Origin: a virus
Reading direction: 5' to 3' (one strand)
DNA length: 31,449 nt
IMG/VR virus record: IMGVR_UViG_3300006736_000050
Coordinates: 1-31,449 of that record
The translations under genes were made by a program, and so were the position numbers. How positions within the stretch are numbered: the first letter of the stretch is position 1; each line of letters begins with the position of its first letter. Below are positions 1,230-23,711 of this stretch, piece after piece. The notes beneath the pieces are model-generated. The model saw nothing but the letters and a program-made list of their open reading frames with translations, was not told the DNA's origin and made no database searches.

Positions 1230-4200
1230 ATGTCAGTTGATAAATTTAAATTTATTTCACCAGGAGTATTTATTCACGAGATTGATGAATCGACTATTCC
1301 ACAGGCGGCGCCCCGCTCAGGTCCGATTTTGCTTGGACGATTTAAGAAGGGGCCATCGAACAGGCCCATAGTGGTTAATTCATACAATGATATGGTTTCT
1401 TACTTCGGGACACCAGCGCCCGGGAATGCTACTGGCGATATTTGGCGCTTAGGGGCTATGACTGCTCCGACCTATGCGGCATATGCTGCGCAAGCCTGGC
1501 TGAGAAATAACACTCCCTGTACAATTGTTAGGATGCTTGGTGTAGAAAATACTAATGCAGTGGGCTATGCTGCTGAACCTACCTCTCTTGCAGGCTGGCG
1601 TACGACCAATGCGGTAGCTGAAGCGGCGGACAACGTTGGCGGGGCCTATGGCTTGTTTGTCATGCCCGACCCTGACTCTACCACCCACGGCGCACAAGCT
1701 TCGTCTGTTTCGATTCTAATCGACCCAGATGGTAATATGAATGCCGCCGCTGCCGCACTTGCCGGGCATATTTTGCTGGGCGCCCCTGACCACGTAACGG
1801 GCGGTATTGCCAACGGCGGTGTTAACGCAGACCCCGCCGAGGCGAATTGTTTGTCATTCGTTTTCAAAGAACTCGCCGACGTCGCCGGCGCGGGCGCCAA
1901 TACCGTAAATGTATCAGTCGGCGCCGCAGCAGATGCGGATCCGAATACCGGCATGACTAACTTCGTGGCGCTTATCAACGGCACGCTTGGAGATACATTG
2001 TTTAATGATGGAGGTACTGACGCAACTCATGCCTCGTTGGCGGCCATCCAGGCGGCATACTCAGCTTCGTGGACTGTTACTAACGCGACGTCGGGCGTTT
2101 TAACCCTTACCACAACAGCCGGAGGCGCATCCGCGAACAACCATATCGCTTTTTTCGACGCGGCGATATTGCCAGCCGCGGCCGACACAATTACGTTTGG
2201 TACCACTACGAGTCCAGTCGATGATTCTGATGCTTGGATTTCTGGAATTACAGCATCTTTTCCAGCTGCAGTGACAGGTACTCTCGGGGCGGTGTGGTAT
2301 ATTGAGGACGGCTGGGCTGAATTGTCGGGAAATCTTCGTCTAACAAAGGCTGGGGTTCAAACGAGCACCAGCACGTCAGCGGCTTTGATTAGGGGCACAG
2401 ATCGAACTTTTACGGTTCGAATCGTATCTGGTACAACCCACGCCGCCGCCGCCTCCACTGAGCTATCTTCAGCTAAATTTAACTTTACTCCAACGTCAGA
2501 TAAGTTCATTCGTAAGGTATATAATACGGATCCCACTGCAACCAATTCGGATCTGATCGACACTAGTGCCGGCGGCGTTTTGGAAAAATATTGGCTTGGC
2601 GAGACGTTTGAATATAGTATCGCTAATGAGATGAAAACAACGCCTTCAACCGCTTCGGTTGGAGATGGACAGCAAGTTAGCGCTTCTGCCACGGGAGAAT
2701 TCTTGGGCATGATGCTTGCCCTTCAAGAAGGCAGCGGCCTGGGGGTTAGTTGGAGTGACCACAACGTTGCTTCGGCGCCCGCAAGTACTGGTTGGTTTTT
2801 CTCAAACGATATTCGCGGGACGACCACTGGTTCTTTCGATCCGACGAACGAGGCGCATGTTTCGAAATTGTTCAAATTTGTTGCCTTAGATAATGGCGAG
2901 AATGTCAACAGGGAAGTTAAGGTTTCGATTGTTGACATTAAAGCGCCATCAAATCAATTTATTGAATATGGAACATTTAGTGTTCTTTTTCGTGATGCGA
3001 AAGATACCGATGCCAATCCTATAATTCTTGAGCGCTATTCCAACCTTTCCTTAGATACGACTGCCGCGAATTATATTTCTCGGGTGATTGGCGATAAACA
3101 ATATCTCTGGGATGATGTAGCTAAGACTGTTAGGCAGTTTGGTACATATAATAATGCCTCCAAGTGGCTCCGCGTTAGCGTTAGTCCATTGGTTGAGGCT
3201 GGTAACGCCGATGGCTTACTGCCGTATGGTGTATATGGCCCGGTCACGATGAAAGGCTTTCAGATCCAGGGAGGCGCCGGCACCCTTACAGGCATTGCCA
3301 CCTCTGCTATCAAAGACGACGCAGGCGAAGACCTAGTTAGCGGTTCTTGGGTTCTTGGCGCTGAGGGAATTGCCACCGGCTCTATTGATGGTACCGACAT
3401 TTCCGCCACCAATCCCATCGCCCTGGTTGGCGATGGCACTGACGAGATTGCATGGGATGCAGGCGCCGCAGCAATTACTGCTTCAATTGTTTATCCTAAG
3501 TCTAGAATTCGGGATAAGGGCACTGATGGTGGGTTAACCCTACAGACACAGGCATATTTTGGATATCAGTCTAACCGTAAGGGCACTAGAATATATAATG
3601 CGGAGAATTATGATCACTTCCGTGGACAGCCAAAGAGCATGGTCGTGGATTCTGTAACCACTGGAGAAACCGACTATTCATGGATCTTTACTTTGGATGA
3701 TCTGGTTATTGACAGTAGCGGAAGTGCAGTGCATGTCACTGGCTCGCGCGCGGCAGCCGCGAACCACCCATCCTGGGCGCTCTCTGACACCAGCGCATCT
3801 TTAACCGCGCTGAGTGGATCTGAGGAGATCCTCACTCAGGGTTATAACCGACTTACCAGCCCTGTTTTCGGTGGGCAAGACGGCTTAGATATCAAGGAAA
3901 AGGATCCATTCCGGAATAGATATCTCAGTAAAGGCGGATCCGCTACAACCAACTACGCGTGGAACACCATCGAGCGCAATATTGATATGATTGCCGATGC
4001 GGAATTTGTTGAGTTTGATGTAGCGTCCGTGCCTGGACTTACCACCGAAACCTTGACAGACAAGCTTATTACAACATGTGAGGCTCGAGCCGACGCTTTG
4101 GCTGTTATCGACTTGAATGGAAGTTATGAGCCCCCACATGAGGGTGTTATCGTCCAGGGAGGAGTTAGCACACGAACTGGCTCTGTTGATGATATTGTTG

Positions 4201-4874
4201 CGAACCTTAAGAACCGTGGCCTTAATTCTAGTTATGGTTGTGCATTCTTCCCGTTTGTACAAATTCGAGATACCGTAAGTGATTCAATCTTGTTTGTACC
4301 ACCTTCGGTTGTTGCAATTGGTACATTTTCTAGTTCGCAACGTAAGTCTGCTGTGTGGTTCGCCCCTGCTGGCTTTACGCGCGGCGGGTTGTCTGAGGGC
4401 TCTGCTGGCCTTCCCGTAATTGGTGTGCGCACCCGAGTTACTGCCGCACAGCGTGACAAGCTGTATGATGCGAATGTTAATCCAATCGCGTCATTTCCAG
4501 CCGAGGGTGTTGTGATTTTTGGACAGAAAACGTTGCAGGTCACCCCTTCAGCGCTGGATCGAATCAATGTCCGCCGGTTGCTTATTTACCTCAAAAAGGA
4601 AATTTCCAGAATCGCTTCAATGACCTTGTTTGAACAAAACGTTCAGGCAACATGGGATAAGTTCTTGGGACAGGTTAATCCTTTCCTCGAGGGCGTAAAA
4701 GCTGGCCTAGGTCTGACTGACTTCAAAGTTGTGCTGGATAAAACGACAACTACGGACGATTTGATTGATAGAAACATTATGTACGCGAAGATCTTCTTGA
4801 AACCTGCACGTGCAATTGAATTTATTGCTCTTGACTTTATTATCACAAGAAGCGGAGCATCTTTTGATGATTAA
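1230..4874 (+). CDS. Tail sheath protein with very large insertion (gp18-like)
   Basis: This 1214-aa contractile-tail sheath protein is nearly twice the length of T4 gp18 (659 aa). The N-terminus (KFISPGVFIHEIDES, then a GPILLGRFKKGP strand) is the classical sheath start used for head-to-tail subunit contacts. The C-terminal third (about residue 880 on) has GGQDGLDIKEKDPF, a SSYGCAFFPFVQI strand, VWFAPAGFTRGG, INVRRLLIYLKKEISR and a final IALDFIITR strand, all typical of the sheath core. Between them, roughly residues 105-400 and parts of 690-880 are rich in Ala, Gly, Thr and Asp and do not look like gp18. The stretch at about 1640-2200 is visibly more GC-rich than its flanks. GGGAG before the ATG gives a good ribosome site. 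Sheath identity is secure; the insertion's role (outer surface domains) is inferred. Confidence 0.93.
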   Translation: MSVDKFKFISPGVFIHEIDESTIPQAAPRSGPILLGRFKKGPSNRPIVVNSYNDMVSYFGTPAPGNATGDIWRLGAMTAPTYAAYAAQAWLRNNTPCTIVRMLGVENTNAVGYAAEPTSLAGWRTTNAVAEAADNVGGAYGLFVMPDPDSTTHGAQASSVSILIDPDGNMNAAAAALAGHILLGAPDHVTGGIANGGVNADPAEANCLSFVFKELADVAGAGANTVNVSVGAAADADPNTGMTNFVALINGTLGDTLFNDGGTDATHASLAAIQAAYSASWTVTNATSGVLTLTTTAGGASANNHIAFFDAAILPAAADTITFGTTTSPVDDSDAWISGITASFPAAVTGTLGAVWYIEDGWAELSGNLRLTKAGVQTSTSTSAALIRGTDRTFTVRIVSGTTHAAAASTELSSAKFNFTPTSDKFIRKVYNTDPTATNSDLIDTSAGGVLEKYWLGETFEYSIANEMKTTPSTASVGDGQQVSASATGEFLGMMLALQEGSGLGVSWSDHNVASAPASTGWFFSNDIRGTTTGSFDPTNEAHVSKLFKFVALDNGENVNREVKVSIVDIKAPSNQFIEYGTFSVLFRDAKDTDANPIILERYSNLSLDTTAANYISRVIGDKQYLWDDVAKTVRQFGTYNNASKWLRVSVSPLVEAGNADGLLPYGVYGPVTMKGFQIQGGAGTLTGIATSAIKDDAGEDLVSGSWVLGAEGIATGSIDGTDISATNPIALVGDGTDEIAWDAGAAAITASIVYPKSRIRDKGTDGGLTLQTQAYFGYQSNRKGTRIYNAENYDHFRGQPKSMVVDSVTTGETDYSWIFTLDDLVIDSSGSAVHVTGSRAAAANHPSWALSDTSASLTALSGSEEILTQGYNRLTSPVFGGQDGLDIKEKDPFRNRYLSKGGSATTNYAWNTIERNIDMIADAEFVEFDVASVPGLTTETLTDKLITTCEARADALAVIDLNGSYEPPHEGVIVQGGVSTRTGSVDDIVANLKNRGLNSSYGCAFFPFVQIRDTVSDSILFVPPSVVAIGTFSSSQRKSAVWFAPAGFTRGGLSEGSAGLPVIGVRTRVTAAQRDKLYDANVNPIASFPAEGVVIFGQKTLQVTPSALDRINVRRLLIYLKKEISRIASMTLFEQNVQATWDKFLGQVNPFLEGVKAGLGLTDFKVVLDKTTTTDDLIDRNIMYAKIFLKPARAIEFIALDFIITRSGASFDD

Positions 4875-5566: not shown

Positions 5567-6442
5567 ATGAGAAATAATGAGAAGCGTCTTGGCGTAAACC
5601 AAGGTCAATCTCTACCAGAGGACGCTGCAGCAGCGACCCAAACAGCCCAACAGCCCGCGGCCCCCGGCCTTTCCTTTGTTGTGCCAACAGAGTTTGTGGA
5701 GTTGCCTTCTAGTGGGCGATTTTATCCCGAGGATCACCCTCTTCACAATAAAGAGGTTGTCGAGATTAAATATATGACAGCCAAAGAAGAGGATATCCTA
5801 ACATCTACATCATTGATCAAGCGAGGGCTAGCAATTGAAAGATTGCTTGCCAACATCTTGGTCGATAAGAAAATCGACACTCAGTCTTTATTGGCCGGAG
5901 ATCGAAATGCTATTTTGGTGGCAGCGCGCGCAAGCGGATATGGCAAGGTATATGAAACCAGCATTGGATGCCCGTCCTGTGGAGACGTCTCAAATCATGT
6001 TTTTGATTTAGGCAAGTCAAGCTTGATGCAGCGTTGTTTTGATGAAGAGTTTTTAAAAGAAAAAGAAATTGAATTAAGTGATAATATTTTCTATGTCACA
6101 TTCCCCAAAACTCAGGTCCGTGTTGGGGTGAAGCTTCTTACTGGCAAAGATGAGGTTTATTTAATGAATGTCAAAAAGAAAAGAAAGTCCAGTGATTCTG
6201 AAACGGCAGTGACTGATCAGCTTAGCAGCATGATTGTTTCTTTAAATAATGAAACTGATTCGTGGAATATACGACGCTTTATTGAGGCTTTGCCTATCTC
6301 CGATTCACAGTATGTGAGAAATACATATAAACAAATTGTCCCCAATTTAGACCTCACACAGACGTTTAGCTGTATGAGGTGTGGCCATGTGCAGGACATG
6401 GAGGTTCCGTTTAATACGGAGTTTTTTTGGCCTAACCAGTGA
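5567..6442 (+). CDS. Baseplate hub-associated protein, T4 gp26-like, with split zinc site
   Basis: This 291-aa protein resembles the T4 gp26 / 'T4 baseplate protein' family (PF12322). After a low-complexity Ala/Gln/Pro-rich start (residues 1-35) come VELPSSGRFYPEDHPL and EIKYMTAKEEDILTSTSLI, a hallmark of the family. The protein ends with FNTEFFWP, also typical. Two CxxC pairs (C135/C138 and C269/C272) should together bind one zinc ion. The gene sits between the tube and the tape measure, where many phages encode tail assembly chaperones. Together with the small gene that follows, it may act on tape-measure folding or hub assembly; this role is inferred. A run of seven T lies 11 bases before the stop codon. 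Confidence 0.75.
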   Translation: MRNNEKRLGVNQGQSLPEDAAAATQTAQQPAAPGLSFVVPTEFVELPSSGRFYPEDHPLHNKEVVEIKYMTAKEEDILTSTSLIKRGLAIERLLANILVDKKIDTQSLLAGDRNAILVAARASGYGKVYETSIGCPSCGDVSNHVFDLGKSSLMQRCFDEEFLKEKEIELSDNIFYVTFPKTQVRVGVKLLTGKDEVYLMNVKKKRKSSDSETAVTDQLSSMIVSLNNETDSWNIRRFIEALPISDSQYVRNTYKQIVPNLDLTQTFSCMRCGHVQDMEVPFNTEFFWPNQ

Positions 6443-13364: not shown

Positions 13365-14814
13365 CTTTATAAAATCAATTTATCATGCCAGGGTAAATTT
13401 AAACGACTCATATCCAAAATATAGGGATATAAAAGAGTTTGACTTGCATCGGAAGCAGCTACTATATGGTAGGATTGATCGTGATGGAGATGCAATTTAT
13501 CTTCATGACGCAAACTTGGATCAAATTTGGACCGGCGAGAAAGGAACAGAATTTGCAGCAGACTTTGTATGCGATGCTTTTGAGTGGTTAAAAAATCATA
13601 TTCAAAAAGTCGCCCGCGGAGCCGGCTTAGATGTTAACAGCCTATACACGCCGGCGATGTTCCGCGCGCACAAAGCCTGGCGCGCCGGAGACCTAGAACA
13701 CAGTTATTATAGATATTTAAATAATTTATATACTGATTTTGTGCAAAATTATTTAGAAGTTAATCGTCGCTATGAAGAGGTTACTGATTTTAATAGTTTT
13801 TTAATGAGCTTTTCCAAATACATGGCCAACATTGCTTATTACTTTCCTTTAACAAAAACAGGATATATTTTGTCTTACCACTGCTCTCCGTACGTGAGTG
13901 GTTTGATGGTAGAGATTGCTAAGCAAAAGCATGGAATGAAAAATAGTAAAAAAATCATACAATACACCACTGATTCAAATTTTCTTTTTATCAAAAAAGC
14001 TGCTAAAAAATTTGGATTTATGATGGACAAAAATGCTCCATGGCGCCTAGTGTTTAATGTGGCCTCCGGTGGCTCCCGAGACAAATATGAGTTGGGATTA
14101 GCTAAGGGTGGCTTACCAACCTTAAAAAACCCGTCTGGTGTAAAGGTACCAACGGGCGAGCAGGAAAAGAGCGGAGCAGCATATTTTATGAATAAATATG
14201 GTGTTGGCTTTGAAAAGGGTGGTGGACATGTTTTTGATGCATATTATGTAAAAGCGCATTTGGCCGAGATAGAGAACCTAAGAGATTACCTATTTTTGTT
14301 TTATGGTGCGTTTTATGAACAATTTGGCTCATACACAAAACTTAAGCTTGATACCTCATCCAAGCAATCGATGTGCGAAAATGCAAAGTTGAGGATTGAG
14401 TACCTTAAAAGAAAGGCGCTTCCCGGAATGGCCACACAAGCCGGCGCCTTGACAACGGGTACTCCTGCCTACATACCCAAGGCCTTCAATGATATATACT
14501 CAGATAGATTTTGGCTTAATTATATTTTGAAGTTTAGATTATTGGAAACTGCGTCTCCACACGATAATATGAGATACAAGTTTTTTCAAAAAGAAATGCT
14601 GGATATTTATAAAACGTACGAGAATGGCGCGCGCGCCGCCCTTAATTATATTAATGACTTGACTAAGGGCTTCCTCGCGACTAAGTTTATTCAAGAGGGG
14701 CAATACTGGTATGGTCAGCCTCAAACAATAAATGAAGCGAGGAAGAAGTTGGCACTAGAGAACGTTGGAAGCGACAAGTATGAGCTTACCGGTGTTTTGA
14801 ATGATCCAAAATAG
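13357..14814 (+). CDS. Unrecognised 485-aa protein, probably virion structural
   Basis: The start is placed at GTG 13357, which has a G-rich ribosome site upstream and overlaps the hub gene's end by 8 bases; the frame is open further up to 13318. The protein is rich in Tyr, Phe, Lys and Leu and appears mostly helical. It has no signal peptide, no clear membrane segment and no catalytic motif that I recognise. Notable stretches are FDLHRKQLLYGRIDRDGDAI, SFSKYMANIAYYFPLTKTGY and a C-terminal TKFIQEGQYWYGQP. It is the last gene of the baseplate block and is tightly coupled to the hub gene, so a baseplate or tail role is most likely. It could also be an ejected or assembly protein. Function is unknown. 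Confidence 0.6.
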   Translation: MPDFIKSIYHARVNLNDSYPKYRDIKEFDLHRKQLLYGRIDRDGDAIYLHDANLDQIWTGEKGTEFAADFVCDAFEWLKNHIQKVARGAGLDVNSLYTPAMFRAHKAWRAGDLEHSYYRYLNNLYTDFVQNYLEVNRRYEEVTDFNSFLMSFSKYMANIAYYFPLTKTGYILSYHCSPYVSGLMVEIAKQKHGMKNSKKIIQYTTDSNFLFIKKAAKKFGFMMDKNAPWRLVFNVASGGSRDKYELGLAKGGLPTLKNPSGVKVPTGEQEKSGAAYFMNKYGVGFEKGGGHVFDAYYVKAHLAEIENLRDYLFLFYGAFYEQFGSYTKLKLDTSSKQSMCENAKLRIEYLKRKALPGMATQAGALTTGTPAYIPKAFNDIYSDRFWLNYILKFRLLETASPHDNMRYKFFQKEMLDIYKTYENGARAALNYINDLTKGFLATKFIQEGQYWYGQPQTINEARKKLALENVGSDKYELTGVLNDPK

Positions 14815-16905: not shown

Positions 16906-17646
16906 ATGAGTATTAATTTTGATAAAATGAAGGAAAAACGCGATTCCTTAGAAAATCGCGACAATTACAAAAGTGTCTTTTGGCGCCCAAACGATGGAGA
17001 ACAAGTTATTCGAATTCTCCCGTCGCCAGACGGAGACCCTTTTAAGGAATTTTGGTTCCACTACAACCTGGGCAAGAACCCGGGTTTCTTGAGCCCCAAA
17101 AAGAACTTTGGCGAGGACGATCCGCTTAACGATTTCGTACGCCAGTTGTTCAAAGATGGGTCGGATGAGAGTGTTCGCATGGCGAAGAATCTCTCTGCTC
17201 GCCAACGCTTCTTTAGTCCGGTACTGGTCCGCGGCGAAGAAGCTCAGGGCGTACGCCTGTGGGGGTTCGGGAAAACAGCTTATAAGGAGTTGTTGAATCT
17301 CGTACTCAACCCTGAATACGGTGATATTACTGATCCAGCCGAAGGCACAGACCTTGTTATTCACTATGGCAAGCCTGCCGGGGCACAGTTCCCTCAAACT
17401 AATATCACCCCGCGCCGTCGTCCCTCCGCGCTAGCAGGGTCTGAAGAGGAGATTCACAAACTGCTTGATTCCGTACCTGACACTTCCCAGGTCTTTGAGC
17501 GAAAAACATCCGAGGACGTCCAAGCGATGCTCGACGAGTTTTTGCTCACCGAGAGCGATGCAGAGGAGATGTCTAGCGAATCAACGCGTGGCAAATCCGC
17601 TACTAACTCAGTGGATCAAGCTTTCGAAGAGCTTTTGGGCTCTTAG
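16906..17646 (+). CDS. ssDNA-binding protein, T4 gp32-like
   Basis: This 246-aa protein should coat single-stranded DNA at the fork and organise UvsX, helicase and polymerase. The start at 16906 is chosen for its strong AAGGAG site; an upstream GTG at 16843 lacks one. The basic N-terminus (FDKMKEKRDSLENRDNY) matches the gp32 cooperativity segment. VFWRPNDGEQVIRILPSP and EFWFHYNLG follow as the first strands of the OB-fold, typical of the marine T4-like gp32 group. No Cys/His zinc site as in T4 gp32 is visible. The C-terminal 70 residues are acidic with a terminal DQAFEELLGS tip, the usual partner-docking tail. Codon use is richer in C/G-ending codons than neighbours, consistent with high expression. 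Confidence 0.85.
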   Translation: MSINFDKMKEKRDSLENRDNYKSVFWRPNDGEQVIRILPSPDGDPFKEFWFHYNLGKNPGFLSPKKNFGEDDPLNDFVRQLFKDGSDESVRMAKNLSARQRFFSPVLVRGEEAQGVRLWGFGKTAYKELLNLVLNPEYGDITDPAEGTDLVIHYGKPAGAQFPQTNITPRRRPSALAGSEEEIHKLLDSVPDTSQVFERKTSEDVQAMLDEFLLTESDAEEMSSESTRGKSATNSVDQAFEELLGS

Positions 17647-17654
17647 TGGTGAAC

Positions 17655-17692
17655 CGCAGGGAGGCCCGGGTTTATAGGGGCCTCATTTTTAT
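17655..17692 (+). terminator. Hairpin element copy A with U-run (intrinsic terminator-like)
   Basis: GAGGCCC (17661-17667) pairs perfectly with GGGCCTC (17678-17684) around a 10-base loop, followed by ATTTTTATT. This has the form of a Rho-independent terminator directly after the ssDNA-binding gene and before the 67-aa gene. It shares the upstream CCGCAGG, loop length and most loop bases with a second copy at 17930-17961. It may therefore be a partial terminator or a processing/stability hairpin that sets the high level of the upstream mRNA. Confidence 0.6.
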
Positions 17693-17715
17693 TCACACAC
17701 ACAGGAGAAAATAAA

Positions 17716-17919
17716 ATGAGTGATTCAAAAAAAAGCGGATATGAACTCCGCACCGATTTGCTAGGAATGGCAATCGGAATCGTTTCTGACAAAATCAATC
17801 GTCAATTCGACAATGAGCATCTGAAGCCAGAAGGCCAGCGCTCATCCGTTGATCCCTACACGACTGAAGACATCATTGCCGAGGCTGAAAAGCTGTACGC
17901 ATTTGTTCAGAAGAAATAA
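17716..17919 (+). CDS. Conserved 67-aa protein of T4-like replication clusters
   Basis: This small acidic protein starts behind a strong AGGAG site. The sequence GYELRTDLLGMAIGI followed by a helix, HLKPEGQR and YTTEDIIAEAEKLYAFVQ resembles small uncharacterised proteins of marine T4-like phages. It looks like two helices joined by a loop, with no catalytic or metal-binding residues. It is placed between the ssDNA-binding protein and UvsX and is flanked on both sides by copies of the same RNA hairpin, which suggests co-regulated and high expression. A role as a replication/recombination accessory or host-takeover factor is possible. Function is unknown. Confidence 0.75.
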   Translation: MSDSKKSGYELRTDLLGMAIGIVSDKINRQFDNEHLKPEGQRSSVDPYTTEDIIAEAEKLYAFVQKK

Positions 17920-17929
17920 GTGAAATATC

Positions 17930-17961
17930 CGCAGGGAGGCACGGGGTTACAGGTGTCTCAT
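17930..17961 (+). ncRNA. Hairpin element copy B (structured RNA before UvsX gene)
   Basis: GAGGCAC (17936-17942) pairs with GTGTCTC (17953-17959) around a 10-base loop. Compared with copy A, the stem has a C-G pair changed to A-T and one G-C changed to a G-U wobble. The loop shares 8 of 10 bases, and CCGCAGG precedes both. Here no T-run follows, and the UvsX ribosome site GGAGG begins 10 bases after the stem. It is therefore not a simple terminator. It could modulate UvsX translation or mRNA processing. Confidence 0.55.
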
Positions 17962-17978
17962 ATCATATGGAGGAACAA

Positions 17979-19091
17979 ATGACTAAAGCAAAAAAGCTTG
18001 GTAAGCTTAATTTGTCAGAGATGCAGAATCTCATTAACAAAAAAGCTGGACAAAACGTAGCCCACGACCTGACTAAAAGCAACCCAACAGAGGTGGAAGG
18101 CTGGATCCCGACAGGGTCGCGCTGGCTTGACAGCATTGTTTGTCGAGGCCAATTAGGCGGAATTCCTCTAGGAAAAATTTCAGAAATTGCAGGCTTGGAA
18201 TCGACAGGAAAATCGTATATGGCCGCACAAGTTGCGGCAAACGCCCTAAAGATGGGCATTGATGTTATTTATTTCGATTCGGAGTCAGCTATCGATCCCT
18301 CGTTTTTGGAACGAGCAGGATGTGACTTAAGCAAGCTTCTGTACGTACAGGCGCAGAGTGTTGAATTTGTGCTTGAAACAGTTGAAGAGCTTATTGGGAG
18401 CAACGACAACCGTATGCTTTTTATATGGGATAGCCTGGCGCTCACCCCTGCGATTAGCGATATTGATGGTGATTTTAACCCACAATCTTCAATGGCGGTA
18501 AAAGCAAGAATTTTAGCTAAGGGAATGTCTAAATTGACAGTGCCCATTGCCAACTCTAAGTGCGCGTTCCTGGTGTTAAACCAGCTTAAAACTAATATTA
18601 CCAGCAACATTGCCGAAGCTATGACGACACCGTATGTCACTCCTGGCGGCAAGGCGATGCACTATGCGTATTCGCTACGTATTTGGCTGACCAAGCGGAA
18701 GGCAAAAGCGTCATTTCTTTTAGATGATAGTGGTTTCCGCATCGGTAACGAGGTTAAGGCGACTCTTAAAAAGAGTCGTTTTGGCACAGAAGGCCGACAA
18801 TGTACATTTAAAATTTTGTGGGGCGGTGATATTGGAATACAAGATGAAGAAAGTTGGCTTGAAGCGATCAAGGGCTCAGAGAACTTAAAACAGGGTGGCG
18901 CTTGGTATAATTTGGTATACGAAGATGGAACTTCGGAGAAATTTCAGGGCGCAAAATGGAAAGAAAAATTGCAAAATGAAAAATTTCGAAAGCGCGTCCT
19001 CCAGATAATGGATGAAGAAGTTATTTTGAGATTTGAAAAGAAATGTGGAGTCGCAACAGACTTTTATGATATTGATTCGGATAGTGAATGA
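17979..19091 (+). CDS. uvsX: RecA-like recombinase UvsX
   Basis: This 370-aa strand-exchange ATPase drives recombination-dependent replication and repair. The start at 17979 has GGAGG at ideal spacing; the in-frame ATG at 17967 overlaps that site. Walker A is GLESTGKS (K78), Walker B is MLFIWDSLA (D151), and the RecA-type VLNQLKTNI and TPGGKAMHYAYSLRIWL segments follow, corresponding to the L2/ATP-sensing region. The N-terminal helix and the acidic C-terminus (DFYDIDSDSE) resemble UvsX more than bacterial RecA. It sits next to its expected partner gp32-like protein and ahead of the FEN nuclease and helicase. No UvsY was recognised in the window. Confidence is high. Confidence 0.92.
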   Translation: MTKAKKLGKLNLSEMQNLINKKAGQNVAHDLTKSNPTEVEGWIPTGSRWLDSIVCRGQLGGIPLGKISEIAGLESTGKSYMAAQVAANALKMGIDVIYFDSESAIDPSFLERAGCDLSKLLYVQAQSVEFVLETVEELIGSNDNRMLFIWDSLALTPAISDIDGDFNPQSSMAVKARILAKGMSKLTVPIANSKCAFLVLNQLKTNITSNIAEAMTTPYVTPGGKAMHYAYSLRIWLTKRKAKASFLLDDSGFRIGNEVKATLKKSRFGTEGRQCTFKILWGGDIGIQDEESWLEAIKGSENLKQGGAWYNLVYEDGTSEKFQGAKWKEKLQNEKFRKRVLQIMDEEVILRFEKKCGVATDFYDIDSDSE

Positions 19092-20489: not shown

Positions 20490-21869
20490 ATGTCAGAAAG
20501 TATTAGTTTTTCAAAATATGGAAAGCAGTTTCAAGAATCGCTAGCCCAATTAATTTTACAGGATCGGCCTTTTTCTGATCAGATAGAAGAAGTGTTGGAC
20601 GTTAATTTTTTTGAACTAAGATATTTAAGGGTGTTTGCGTCGATGATATATGATTATCGTCATAAGTATGGCGTGCACCCTACTGAAAAAATCATCGCTT
20701 CGATGCTTAGAACAGAACTAGACAAAGTTCCGGAATCAGTACAAAAGCAAACCAGAGATTATTTTGCGAGAGTTTTGATTAAGACTCTCCAAGATGTGCA
20801 ATATATTAAAGATACTAGTTTAGATTTCTGTAAAAAGCAAAAACTTAAAGAAGCTTTGATGAAGTCGGTCGACTTAATTCAAAATTCGTCTTATGATGAA
20901 GTAAGAGATGTGATAGACGACGCGCTTAAGCTTGGCACAGATAACAATTTTGGCCACGATTTTAAAAAAGACTTTGAGTTGCGTTATGAAATCAAGGCTC
21001 GAAGTCCAATTTCTACGGGATGGGAGAGAATTGATAAGCTAACAAAAGGTGGTATGGGTATGGGTGAGCTTGGTGTGGTCATCGCCCCCACCGGCGCCGG
21101 AAAATCCATGGCGCTTGCGCACCTGGGTGCCCATGCAGTTAAGTCTGGAAAAAATGTAGTACATTATACATTAGAATTGAGCGAATCAGCTACCGGGCAG
21201 CGATATGATAGCTGCCTCTCCGCCGTGCCACTGTCTGGCTTATTTCACCAGAAAGATGAGGTTCTAGAGGTTATTGCGGGCCTTGAGGGGTCACTAATCA
21301 TCAAAGAATATCCTACAAAAACTGCGTCGACGAACACATTAAGATCCCATATAGAAAAATTAAAAAAACGAAATCATAAAATCGATATGATTATAGTGGA
21401 TTACGCAGATCTGCTTCGATCTACAACTCACTTCAAAGAGAAAAGGAACGAACTGGAGTCTATATACGAGAGTCTAAGGGCGATTGCACAAGAATATAAG
21501 TGCCCGGTATGGACGGCTTCACAAACCAATAGATCGGGTTTAAACGCGGAGGTTGTAACAATGGAGTCAATTTCAGAAGCGTTCAATAAGTGTTTTGTCG
21601 CAGATTTCATATTCTCAATTTCCAGAACTATTAAGGATAAAAACTCTAATACAGCTAGAATGTTTATTGCTAAAAACAGGAACGGTCCCGATGGGTTGGT
21701 GTTTCCGATGTTCATAGACACCAGTTGTGTACAGCTTAATGTTCTGACACCCACAGATAGTCCTTATGCTGAAGCCGCGACCTCCCCGTCGGAACTAGCA
21801 AAAAATTTAAAAGAAAAATATAAACTATTTCGAAAATCAAGAAAGGAAAACATGAATGGACCTACCTAA
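20490..21869 (+). CDS. Replicative DNA helicase, DnaB/T4 gp41-like
   Basis: This 459-aa superfamily 4 hexameric helicase unwinds DNA at the fork. The N-terminal 150 residues are the helical domain that contacts primase in DnaB. ISTGWERIDKLTKGGMGMGE leads to Walker A APTGAGKS (K205). VVHYTLELSE holds the conserved Glu, and Walker B is MIIVDYADLL (D304). VWTASQTNRSG follows, and the end has IAKNRNGPDG, the arginine-finger region. GGGG lies 9 bases before the ATG. Its 3' end overlaps the reductase start by 14 bases. No primase gene was seen in the window. Confidence 0.92.
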   Translation: MSESISFSKYGKQFQESLAQLILQDRPFSDQIEEVLDVNFFELRYLRVFASMIYDYRHKYGVHPTEKIIASMLRTELDKVPESVQKQTRDYFARVLIKTLQDVQYIKDTSLDFCKKQKLKEALMKSVDLIQNSSYDEVRDVIDDALKLGTDNNFGHDFKKDFELRYEIKARSPISTGWERIDKLTKGGMGMGELGVVIAPTGAGKSMALAHLGAHAVKSGKNVVHYTLELSESATGQRYDSCLSAVPLSGLFHQKDEVLEVIAGLEGSLIIKEYPTKTASTNTLRSHIEKLKKRNHKIDMIIVDYADLLRSTTHFKEKRNELESIYESLRAIAQEYKCPVWTASQTNRSGLNAEVVTMESISEAFNKCFVADFIFSISRTIKDKNSNTARMFIAKNRNGPDGLVFPMFIDTSCVQLNVLTPTDSPYAEAATSPSELAKNLKEKYKLFRKSRKENMNGPT

Positions 21870-22668
21870 TAGAATTTTATCAGATATTACGGTGCACATG
21901 AAGTATGCCAGGTATTTACCTAAAAAGAATAGGCGTGAAACTTGGGAAGAGCTTGTCGTGAGAAACAAAAACATGCACGTTAAAAAATACCCTCAACTGA
22001 GGGAAGAAATAGAGGAGGCGTATAAGTATGTTTATGACAAAAAAATATTACCATCAATGCGATCCATGCAATTCGGGGGCAAACCCATTGAGGTTGCTCC
22101 TAACAGGATTTATAATTGTGCCTATATTCCTATTGATCATCCTTTGGCTTTTAGTGAGTGCATGTTTCTCTTGCTTGGAGGAACAGGCGTCGGATTTTCT
22201 GTGCAAAGTCACCACGTGGAAAAACTCCCGGAAGTCCAAACCCCAAGTACAAAAAGAACCCGACGCTTCCTGATCGCAGATTCTATTGAAGGTTGGGCAG
22301 ATGCTGTTAAAGTGTTGATGAATTCATACTTTAGAGGAGGGTCTAAAATACGTTTTGATTTTAGTGACATCCGTCCGAAGGGCGCCCGACTACTTACTAC
22401 TGGAGGGAAAGCGCCAGGACCGCAACCCCTTAAAGAATGTTTGTTGAAAATTAGGGGAGTGTTGGATGAAAAAGAGCCTGGAGATCAGCTGGAGACAATT
22501 GAAGTTCACGACATTATTTGTCACGTTGCTGATGCTGTTCTTGCCGGGGGCATTCGCCGGGCTGCTCTTATTTCACTTTTTCAGCTGACGACGAAGAGAT
22601 GCTTGCCTCAAAGTCTGGAAACTGGTGGGAAAAGAACCCACAACGAGGTCGCGCAAATAATTCAGTAG
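21856..22668 (+). CDS. nrdJ: Class II ribonucleotide reductase, N-terminal part (before frameshift)
   Basis: The B12-dependent reductase converts ribonucleotides to deoxyribonucleotides for phage DNA synthesis. This reading frame carries the N-terminal half: ILPSMRSMQFGG, NRIYNCAYIPIDHP (first redox cysteine), LLLGGTGVGFSVQ, DSIEGWADAVKVL, RPKGARLLTTGGKAPG and AVLAGGIRRAALISLF. After ISLF (codon ending 22581) the frame runs out into unrelated sequence to 22668. The family continuation, S-A-D-D-E-E-M, is in the frame one base back. The start at 21856 has GAAAGGA eight bases upstream. Together with the next entry the protein would be about 620 aa. Either an indel or programmed slippage must be assumed for a full enzyme. 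Confidence 0.88.
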   Translation: MDLPNRILSDITVHMKYARYLPKKNRRETWEELVVRNKNMHVKKYPQLREEIEEAYKYVYDKKILPSMRSMQFGGKPIEVAPNRIYNCAYIPIDHPLAFSECMFLLLGGTGVGFSVQSHHVEKLPEVQTPSTKRTRRFLIADSIEGWADAVKVLMNSYFRGGSKIRFDFSDIRPKGARLLTTGGKAPGPQPLKECLLKIRGVLDEKEPGDQLETIEVHDIICHVADAVLAGGIRRAALISLFQLTTKRCLPQSLETGGKRTHNEVAQIIQ

Positions 22669-23711
22669 TGTTGTTGCGTCATCGAATCACAAAGGAATAT
22701 TTTCTTAATATTTGGCATCGCGTCCGAGCCAGTGGCAGCGGAGAGCCTGGATTTTATTTTTCCAATGATAAGGATTGGGGTACAAACCCTTGTTGTGAGA
22801 TCGCGTTGCGACCATATCAATTTTGTAACCTGGTAGAGATCGACGCGTCGGATTTGTCAGATCAGGAAGAATACGAAGATCGTTGCCGAGCAGCGTCTTT
22901 TATTGCGACACTTCAGGCAGGATATACAGATTTTCATTACTTGCGAGATGCCTGGCAAAGGACCACGGAGAAAGACGCTCTCATTGGCGTGTCAATGACA
23001 GGCATTGCCTCTGGCCGCGTTACAAACCTAGATATGAAAGCCGGTGCGCAGACGATAAAAAAAGAAAATCGAAGAGTTGCAGAACAAATTGGCATTAATC
23101 CCTCTGCGAGATCAACATGCGTGAAGCCGGCTGGAACCACCTCTTTAACACTTGGAACCTCAAGCGGCATCCACGCGTGGCACAACAATTATTACATTAG
23201 AAGAATGCGCGTTGGTAAAAACGAGGCAATATATACCTATTTGTTAACCAATCACCCTGAGTTGATAGAGGACGAGTTTTTCAGGCCTCACGATACAGCT
23301 ATTATTTCAGTACCACAAAAAGCACCCCGGGGCTCAATTACAAGAAAAGAGTCAGCTTTAGATTTATTAGAAAGAATTCAAAATATATTTTCTAACTGGG
23401 TCAAGCCTGGGCACCAAAGAGGACAAAACACGCACAATGTATCAGCTACAATCTCCATTAAAGAAAAAGAATGGGATACGGTATCAGAGTGGATGTGGGA
23501 ACATAGAGATGTTTACAATGGTTTGTCTGTCCTGCCCCACTCGAACCACACCTACACTCAGGCGCCTTTTGAGGATTGTACAAAGGACGAATATGAGAGG
23601 CTAATGGAGGCGCTCACCGAGGTCGACGTTAGCGGCATCGTTGAATTTGATGATGATACTAATCTAACTGGAGAGTTGGCTTGCGCCGGTGGAGCGTGTG
23701 AAATTAAATAA
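22581..23711 (+). CDS. nrdJ: Class II ribonucleotide reductase, C-terminal part (after frameshift)
   Basis: This is the continuation in the -1 frame, beginning SADDEEMLASKSGNWWEK. An ATG at 22599 exists but has no ribosome site, so it is probably not an independent start. It contains the catalytic NPCCEI motif (thiyl-radical cysteine flanked by N and E), the partner cysteine in YQFCNLVEID, GVSMTGIASG, the phosphate-binding KPAGTTSLTLGTSSGIH, and a C-terminal CAGGAC pair that would re-reduce the active site. Absence of a small-subunit gene in the window agrees with class II. Every expected catalytic element is present, so the gene looks recently or only apparently broken. Confidence 0.88.
   Translation, partial: SADDEEMLASKSGNWWEKNPQRGRANNSVVLLRHRITKEYFLNIWHRVRASGSGEPGFYFSNDKDWGTNPCCEIALRPYQFCNLVEIDASDLSDQEEYEDRCRAASFIATLQAGYTDFHYLRDAWQRTTEKDALIGVSMTGIASGRVTNLDMKAGAQTIKKENRRVAEQIGINPSARSTCVKPAGTTSLTLGTSSGIHAWHNNYYIRRMRVGKNEAIYTYLLTNHPELIEDEFFRPHDTAIISVPQKAPRGSITRKESALDLLERIQNIFSNWVKPGHQRGQNTHNVSATISIKEKEWDTVSEWMWEHRDVYNGLSVLPHSNHTYTQAPFEDCTKDEYERLMEALTEVDVSGIVEFDDDTNLTGELACAGGACEIK

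Follow-up and report, generated by a model that had tools for sequence, protein, structure and literature searches.

An RNA element that occurs twice between the gp32-like gene and uvsX of an uncultured virus, and again behind stop codons in the corresponding gene cluster of its relatives, is, as judged from covariation, an H-type pseudoknot in both copies and more than a plain hairpin. The element probably determines where messages from the gp32/UvsX region end or how much of each is present. We regard it as a new RNA family among regulators of a known kind (i.e., intercistronic structured RNAs); neither Rfam nor the literature searched contains it. The window, i.e., the whole stretch of DNA analysed, comprised 31,449 bases (positions 1-31,449, one strand, of IMG/VR virus record IMGVR_UViG_3300006736_000050) and included genes for tail, gp32, uvsX, helicase and ribonucleotide reductase. 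Features around the two copies, referred to as A and B, are listed in Table 1.

Table 1. Coordinates of the pseudoknot copies and neighboring genes in the window.
Feature	Position	Strand	Details
gp32-like single-stranded-DNA-binding protein gene, 246 aa, cistron 5' of copy A	16906..17646	+	Pfam PF08804 E 3e-13; phrog_1192 E 2e-23
TAG stop of gp32	17644-17646		
Copy A, whole pseudoknot element, start 7 nt past gp32 stop	17653..17685	+	covariance model 62.7 bits
Copy A helix S1, 5' strand (A C C), partner 17669-17671 (G G T)	17653..17655	+	covariation of N(-1):N4 and C1:G3 in relatives
Copy A connecting strand L1 (GCAGG), near-invariant among relatives	17656..17660	+	alignment
Copy A hairpin	17661..17684	+	S2 GAGGCCC 17661-17667, loop GGGTTTATAG 17668-17677, S2' GGGCCTC 17678-17684
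Copy A single-stranded tail ATTTTTATT, G-free like relatives	17685..17693	+	
67-aa conserved protein gene, cistron between copies A and B	17716..17919	+	80 relatives in viral contigs
TAA stop of 67-aa gene	17917-17919		
Copy B, whole pseudoknot element, 9 nt past 67-aa stop	17928..17960	+	covariance model 59.7 bits
Copy B helix S1, 5' strand (T C C), partner 17944-17946 (G G G)	17928..17930	+	covariation in relatives
Copy B hairpin	17936..17959	+	S2 GAGGCAC 17936-17942, loop GGGGTTACAG 17943-17952, S2' GTGTCTC 17953-17959
uvsX recombinase gene, 370 aa, 3' of copy B	17979..19091	+	phrog_97 E 6e-60; Pfam RecA E 1e-36

Relatives of UvsX in named phages were distant (approximately 32% identity at best), and no DNA match to the locus or to the element consensus was noted among named phages by blastn. 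The comparison was based on 233 viral-contig loci, retrieved with gp32, UvsX and the 67-aa protein as queries, and the element, of the form N-CCGCAGG / 7-bp stem / GGGN..AYAG, was found again in most of them. The 67-aa protein had no match in either Pfam or PHROG, though it was conserved in at least 80 viral loci; its gene is preceded by a leader (CACACACACAGGAG, 17694-17708), and similar CA-repeat leaders were noted before homologues in several relatives. Elsewhere in the window, the C-terminal third of a 1214-aa ORF (1230-4874) matched tail sheath families, and two overlapping ORFs in different frames (21856-22668 and 22599-23711) matched the N-terminal and C-terminal parts of phrog_367, a ribonucleotide reductase family, which may reflect a split gene, a frameshift or a sequencing error.

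The facts that the first-pass annotation gave for the two copies were all borne out. The same element lies behind the gp32 and 67-aa stops, at distances of 7 nt (copy A) and 9 nt (copy B); the stems differ with pairing kept (GAGGCCC/GGGCCTC as opposed to GAGGCAC/GTGTCTC), one pair having exchanged both of its bases (C-G to A-U) and another having become G-U; the loops are equal at 8 of 10 positions; and copy B lies just before uvsX, 19 nt from the ATG at 17979. A T-run was present 3' of copy A only, a run of at least 5 U directly following the stem in copy A and not in copy B. The copies form 33-nt direct repeats (17654-17686 and 17929-17961) that are 85% identical, and their hairpins folded better than shuffled sequences, with z scores of -3.1 (copy A) and -3.7 (copy B). 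A covariance model from the relatives, scanned over the window, recovered copy A with E ~1e-15 and copy B with E ~1e-14, scores that are partly by construction because both copies are rows of the model alignment, while the third-ranked site scored just 11.5 bits. In contrast, the GTGAA prefix that had been taken as part of the element was not conserved, as indicated by flank frequencies in the relatives, and the plain hairpin of the first description had missed the pseudoknot.

The pseudoknot consists of a helix S1 of 3 bp, the connecting strand L1 (GCAGG), a helix S2 of 7 bp, one base, the second strand S1' and a strand L3 that ends in AYAG. S1 is formed by the GG of the loop and the next base, which pair with the upstream CC and the base preceding it. 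A hint of this pairing came from a divergent subtype, (C/T)CC-ACAGG-stem-AGG(G/A)TTATCAG-stem. In four loci (L176, L200, L281 and L374), L3 was longer by approximately 10-25 nt, with S1, S2 and the AYAG end retained. In an alignment of 93 distinct copies, the CC, CAGG, mid-stem and GGG letters were invariant or nearly so; outside the middle of S2 the letters varied, yet 99.2% of cells were paired and 4 of the 7 pairs had changed on both sides. S2 had a covariation of 0.493; shuffles gave 0.256, and slid versions never exceeded 0.225. The variable knot pair, N(-1):N4, followed standard pairing in 73 of the 83 sequences of the type-1 alignment, with 5 pair types and 36 two-sided changes. It was paired in 242 of 262 distinct contexts (10,000 shuffles: mean 120, maximum 155) as A-U, C-G, U-A, G-C or U-G, being A-U in copy A and U-G in copy B. 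These counts overstate independent events owing to kinship among the sequences, a bias that is countered only in part by the variety of pair types and by the slide controls. Inside the knot, C1:G3 was C-G in 259 of these contexts and G-C in 3, with 0 mismatches. In S2 and in the knot alike, pairing was conserved in relatives, and the selection on RNA structure proposed at the outset was strongly supported.

G-T and A-C combinations in S2 were strongly asymmetric, G-T being noted 112 times and A-C once, which indicates that the sense RNA is the selected strand. Where loci were oriented by their gp32, UvsX and 67-aa genes, 135 of 135 distinct copies were on the coding strand. A plain DNA site was ruled out by the G-T/A-C asymmetry together with the pair-preserving changes. 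Preservation of shape by evolution while letters changed is strongly supported. The invariant letters of L1, mid-stem and loop could serve tight packing of the knot or recognition by a dedicated protein. Copies within a genome were slightly more alike than expected at random (25.8 of 31 letters, compared with 24.3; 0 of 2000 permutations), which could reflect a shared trans-acting recogniser or local duplication.

Copies were concentrated between the two genes. Among 205 distinct gp32-uvsX loci, 216 copies lay between both genes (144 kb) as opposed to 6 elsewhere (1.28 Mb), and 3 copies were noted upstream of a gp32 stop. A DNA-pattern scan of IMG/VR and three genome contigs gave at least 119 loci, at least 110 of which had gp32 and/or uvsX within reach; long records having the element had 1-4 real copies each, a few of them outside the cluster, and the far copies in one record (G012) were discarded as false positives. 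In the common layouts, gp32 is followed by the element and uvsX, by the element, a small gene, a second element and uvsX, or by the element, a small gene and uvsX; extra genes between gp32 and uvsX were often each trailed by one copy. In L334 (minus strand near 14266) and in L370 (minus strand near 5611 and 5650), a single intergenic gap contained two elements directly in tandem, at a spacing of approximately 39 nt.

The element tracked the end of the gene before it: 268 of 307 copies began 4-17 nt past the stop codon of an ORF of at least 40 codons (control 4%), the stop-to-copy distance having a median of 9 nt and quartiles of 7-11. A start codon lay within 60 nt downstream of 253 copies (control 18%), usually at 19-34 nt (median 26), and the remaining downstream features were 4 tRNAs, 1 terminator and 49 others. 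Two copies behind a MoxR-like ATPase gene had no clear gene after them. Since the element tracks the upstream stop and not the downstream start, the earlier suggestion that it serves the downstream gene was weakened. This distribution agrees with the more general proposal of an element that may act in processing, stabilisation or protein binding in the gp32-uvsX region. Stop-codon read-through of the kind seen with a retroviral stop followed by a pseudoknot was rejected, the spacing from stop to knot falling in all three frames (88/118/73); the window also counts against it, as the gp32 frame holds a TGA two codons past its TAG.

The 10 nt 3' of the element were 83% A+T, 44% T and 3% G, and no G was present in 77% of 273 tails compared with 15% of controls. 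Canonical terminators occupied exactly the same slot in gp32-uvsX gaps of sister phages that lacked the element (e.g., GGGGGGCTTCGGCCCCCCTTTTTTTT in L051; also L042, L062 and others). The element shares with these intrinsic terminators its slot, GC-rich stem and AU-rich tail and differs from them in its conserved 10-nt loop, its pseudoknot and the frequent lack of a U-run. In the slot after gp32, examined in 205 loci, type 1 or 2 pseudoknots were noted in 142, a type-1-like form in 4 and a third type in 8 (154 pseudoknots), and rule-based terminators in 20; labelling by eye added a further 9 terminators and 14 loci in which the next gene directly abuts gp32. No extra terminator was found within 60 nt of any of the 142 post-gp32 copies. 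On a gp32 tree (FastTree, uncorrected), parsimony required at least 13 switches between pseudoknot and terminator. The statement of the first-pass annotation that termination cannot explain both copies was accordingly sustained in part: a T-run of at least 4 followed only 46% of copies, but an end-of-message role is nearer the evidence than that annotation allowed because terminators of sister phages fill the exact slot. Termination alone is unlikely since many copies have no strong U-tract (longest T-run at most 2 in 92 of 273).

The third pseudoknot type (consensus NCCG[AC]T-GGCAGAC-CGG...A-GTCTGCC) was seen at similar positions, with up to four copies per locus, in L158, L171, L176, L181, L186, L187, L192, L199, L210, L215, L227 and L305; its stem and S1 had pair-preserving variants, GGCACCC/GGGTGCC and GGCACAC/GTGTGCC among them. 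In L120, a terminator and then an apparent tRNA gene stood in place of the pseudoknot in the gp32-uvsX slot.

A role at 3' ends is favoured because of the tight linkage to the upstream stop, the interchange with terminators and the indifference to the downstream feature. The gp32 protein is generally needed in higher amount than UvsX. We lean, tentatively and at close to an even chance, towards an intercistronic 3'-end element that may insulate the gp32 message or protect it, and so keep gp32 at a higher level than the genes downstream. A compact H-type pseudoknot would form in the mRNA at the 3' end of the cistron, nascent or processed transcripts would be ended at, or trimmed back to, the knot, and the knot would shield the message of gp32, and those of the small genes that follow, against 3'-5' decay; read-through to later genes would be lowered, which would leave gp32 above the downstream products, as with the stem-loops of malEFG or puf. 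The fold, its sense strand, the selection on it, its placement and its replacement in sister phages are shown by the comparisons; that it forms or protects ends, reduces expression further downstream or has a protein partner is inferred. Protective 3' structures at operon boundaries provide a precedent, and the malEFG and puf stem-loops likewise place an RNA structure right after the more-needed cistron of the operon (PMC5927463); unlike these, the present element is pseudoknotted, has near-invariant unpaired letters and forms one homologous family over many phages. Against the 3'-end reading, a general stabiliser need not be confined to one cluster or require near-invariant loop and L1 letters, and some gp32 genes abut the next gene with no element between.

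The strongest rival of the 3'-end reading, possible although unlikely, is a protein-bound operator like that of T4 gene 32, in which gp32 or another phage protein would bind the knot, spread along the tail to the ribosome site and repress the next gene, or act on the message from the 3' side. In the gene 32 leader of T2, the knot also has an S2 of 7 bp, with S1' directly after S2. In the T4/RB69 gp32 operator, a pseudoknot of approximately 28 nt precedes an unstructured, AU-rich stretch in which the ribosome site lies (PMC535899, PMC3014915). The element resembles the T4, T2 and RB69 leaders as an H-type pseudoknot near a gp32 gene with an AU-rich tail after it, a tail that is nearly G-free; in operators of the T4 type, the segment that covers the ribosome site has UUAAA repeats. 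The usual distance to a start, the near-confinement to the gp32-uvsX cluster, the near-invariant L1 and loop letters, suggestive of recognition, and the likeness of copies of one genome also speak for an operator. However, the element sits past the gp32 stop and past further genes and not before the gp32 start, differs in sequence from the T4, T2 and RB69 knots and occurs in 1-4 copies per genome; with the covariance model, no match was found upstream of gp32 in the window, so that the gp32 leader there has no copy. Copies track stop codons and not starts, some precede a tRNA or no gene, the 60 nt before uvsX contain a copy in just 54 of 205 cases, and sister phages have terminator hairpins in its stead.

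In a variant that we consider doubtful, the element family would serve autoregulation: the phage ssDNA-binding protein, or a dedicated phage protein, would find its target at the 3' end of its own cistron and again after every further gene as far as uvsX. If true, this would be a second, independently built SSB/pseudoknot circuit, with the entire SSB-recombinase operon tuned together. Short pseudoknots repeated near Ssb genes have been described as the STAXI motif (PMC2864571), which the element resembles in this respect; it differs in having no UUCG loops and in copies that are spaced by genes and not in tandem, and identity with STAXI was unsupported by a covariance-model match.

Also improbable is a conditional terminator, or attenuator, in which the stem and U-rich tail would halt RNA polymerase and a ligand or protein would gate or tune the halt via the pseudoknot. 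The GC-rich stem, the T-rich and G-poor tail, the terminators in the same slot of sister phages and the lack of an additional terminator beside post-gp32 copies agree with it, whereas the longest T-run reached 5 in only 67 of 273 copies, the loops of approximately 10 nt have conserved letters, the copy in L348 has its own terminator immediately 3', and there is no obvious switch since the knot helix is compatible, and not competing, with the stem. The adjacent genes (replication, recombination and small accessory genes) gave no metabolite hint for a riboswitch. A RegB-type GGAG site was rejected, many copies reading AAGGC or GGGGGC.

PeSL elements are mobile regulatory cassettes of T4-type phages in which stem-loops bound small accessory genes. 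The element is likewise found at boundaries of small accessory genes, and its repetition behind extra genes and the likeness of same-genome copies could suggest short repeats that aid shuffling of small genes between gp32 and uvsX, with the RNA fold secondary; this is very improbable, as pair-preserving changes and the G-T/A-C asymmetry denote selection on sense RNA, pair-preserving changes lower DNA identity, and, unlike in PeSL, an early promoter would not fit between the element and the next start, no sigma-70-like site being found in the window between copy A or B and the following start codon.

Searches of Rfam at a permissive threshold gave no relevant match for the window, for 336 nt around the copies or for two loci of the third type, and no family, STAXI included, was matched at E<=10 on 17640-17975. 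No description of the element was found in searches of the open PMC literature. These findings describe a compact, strongly covarying RNA family in more than 200 distinct contexts of uncultured viruses that marks gene ends in the SSB-recombinase cluster. The family offers a directly testable case of how the gp32-to-UvsX ratio is set in phages, and it bears on whether control by SSB and a pseudoknot, as described in T-even phages and RB69, may be more widespread than thought.
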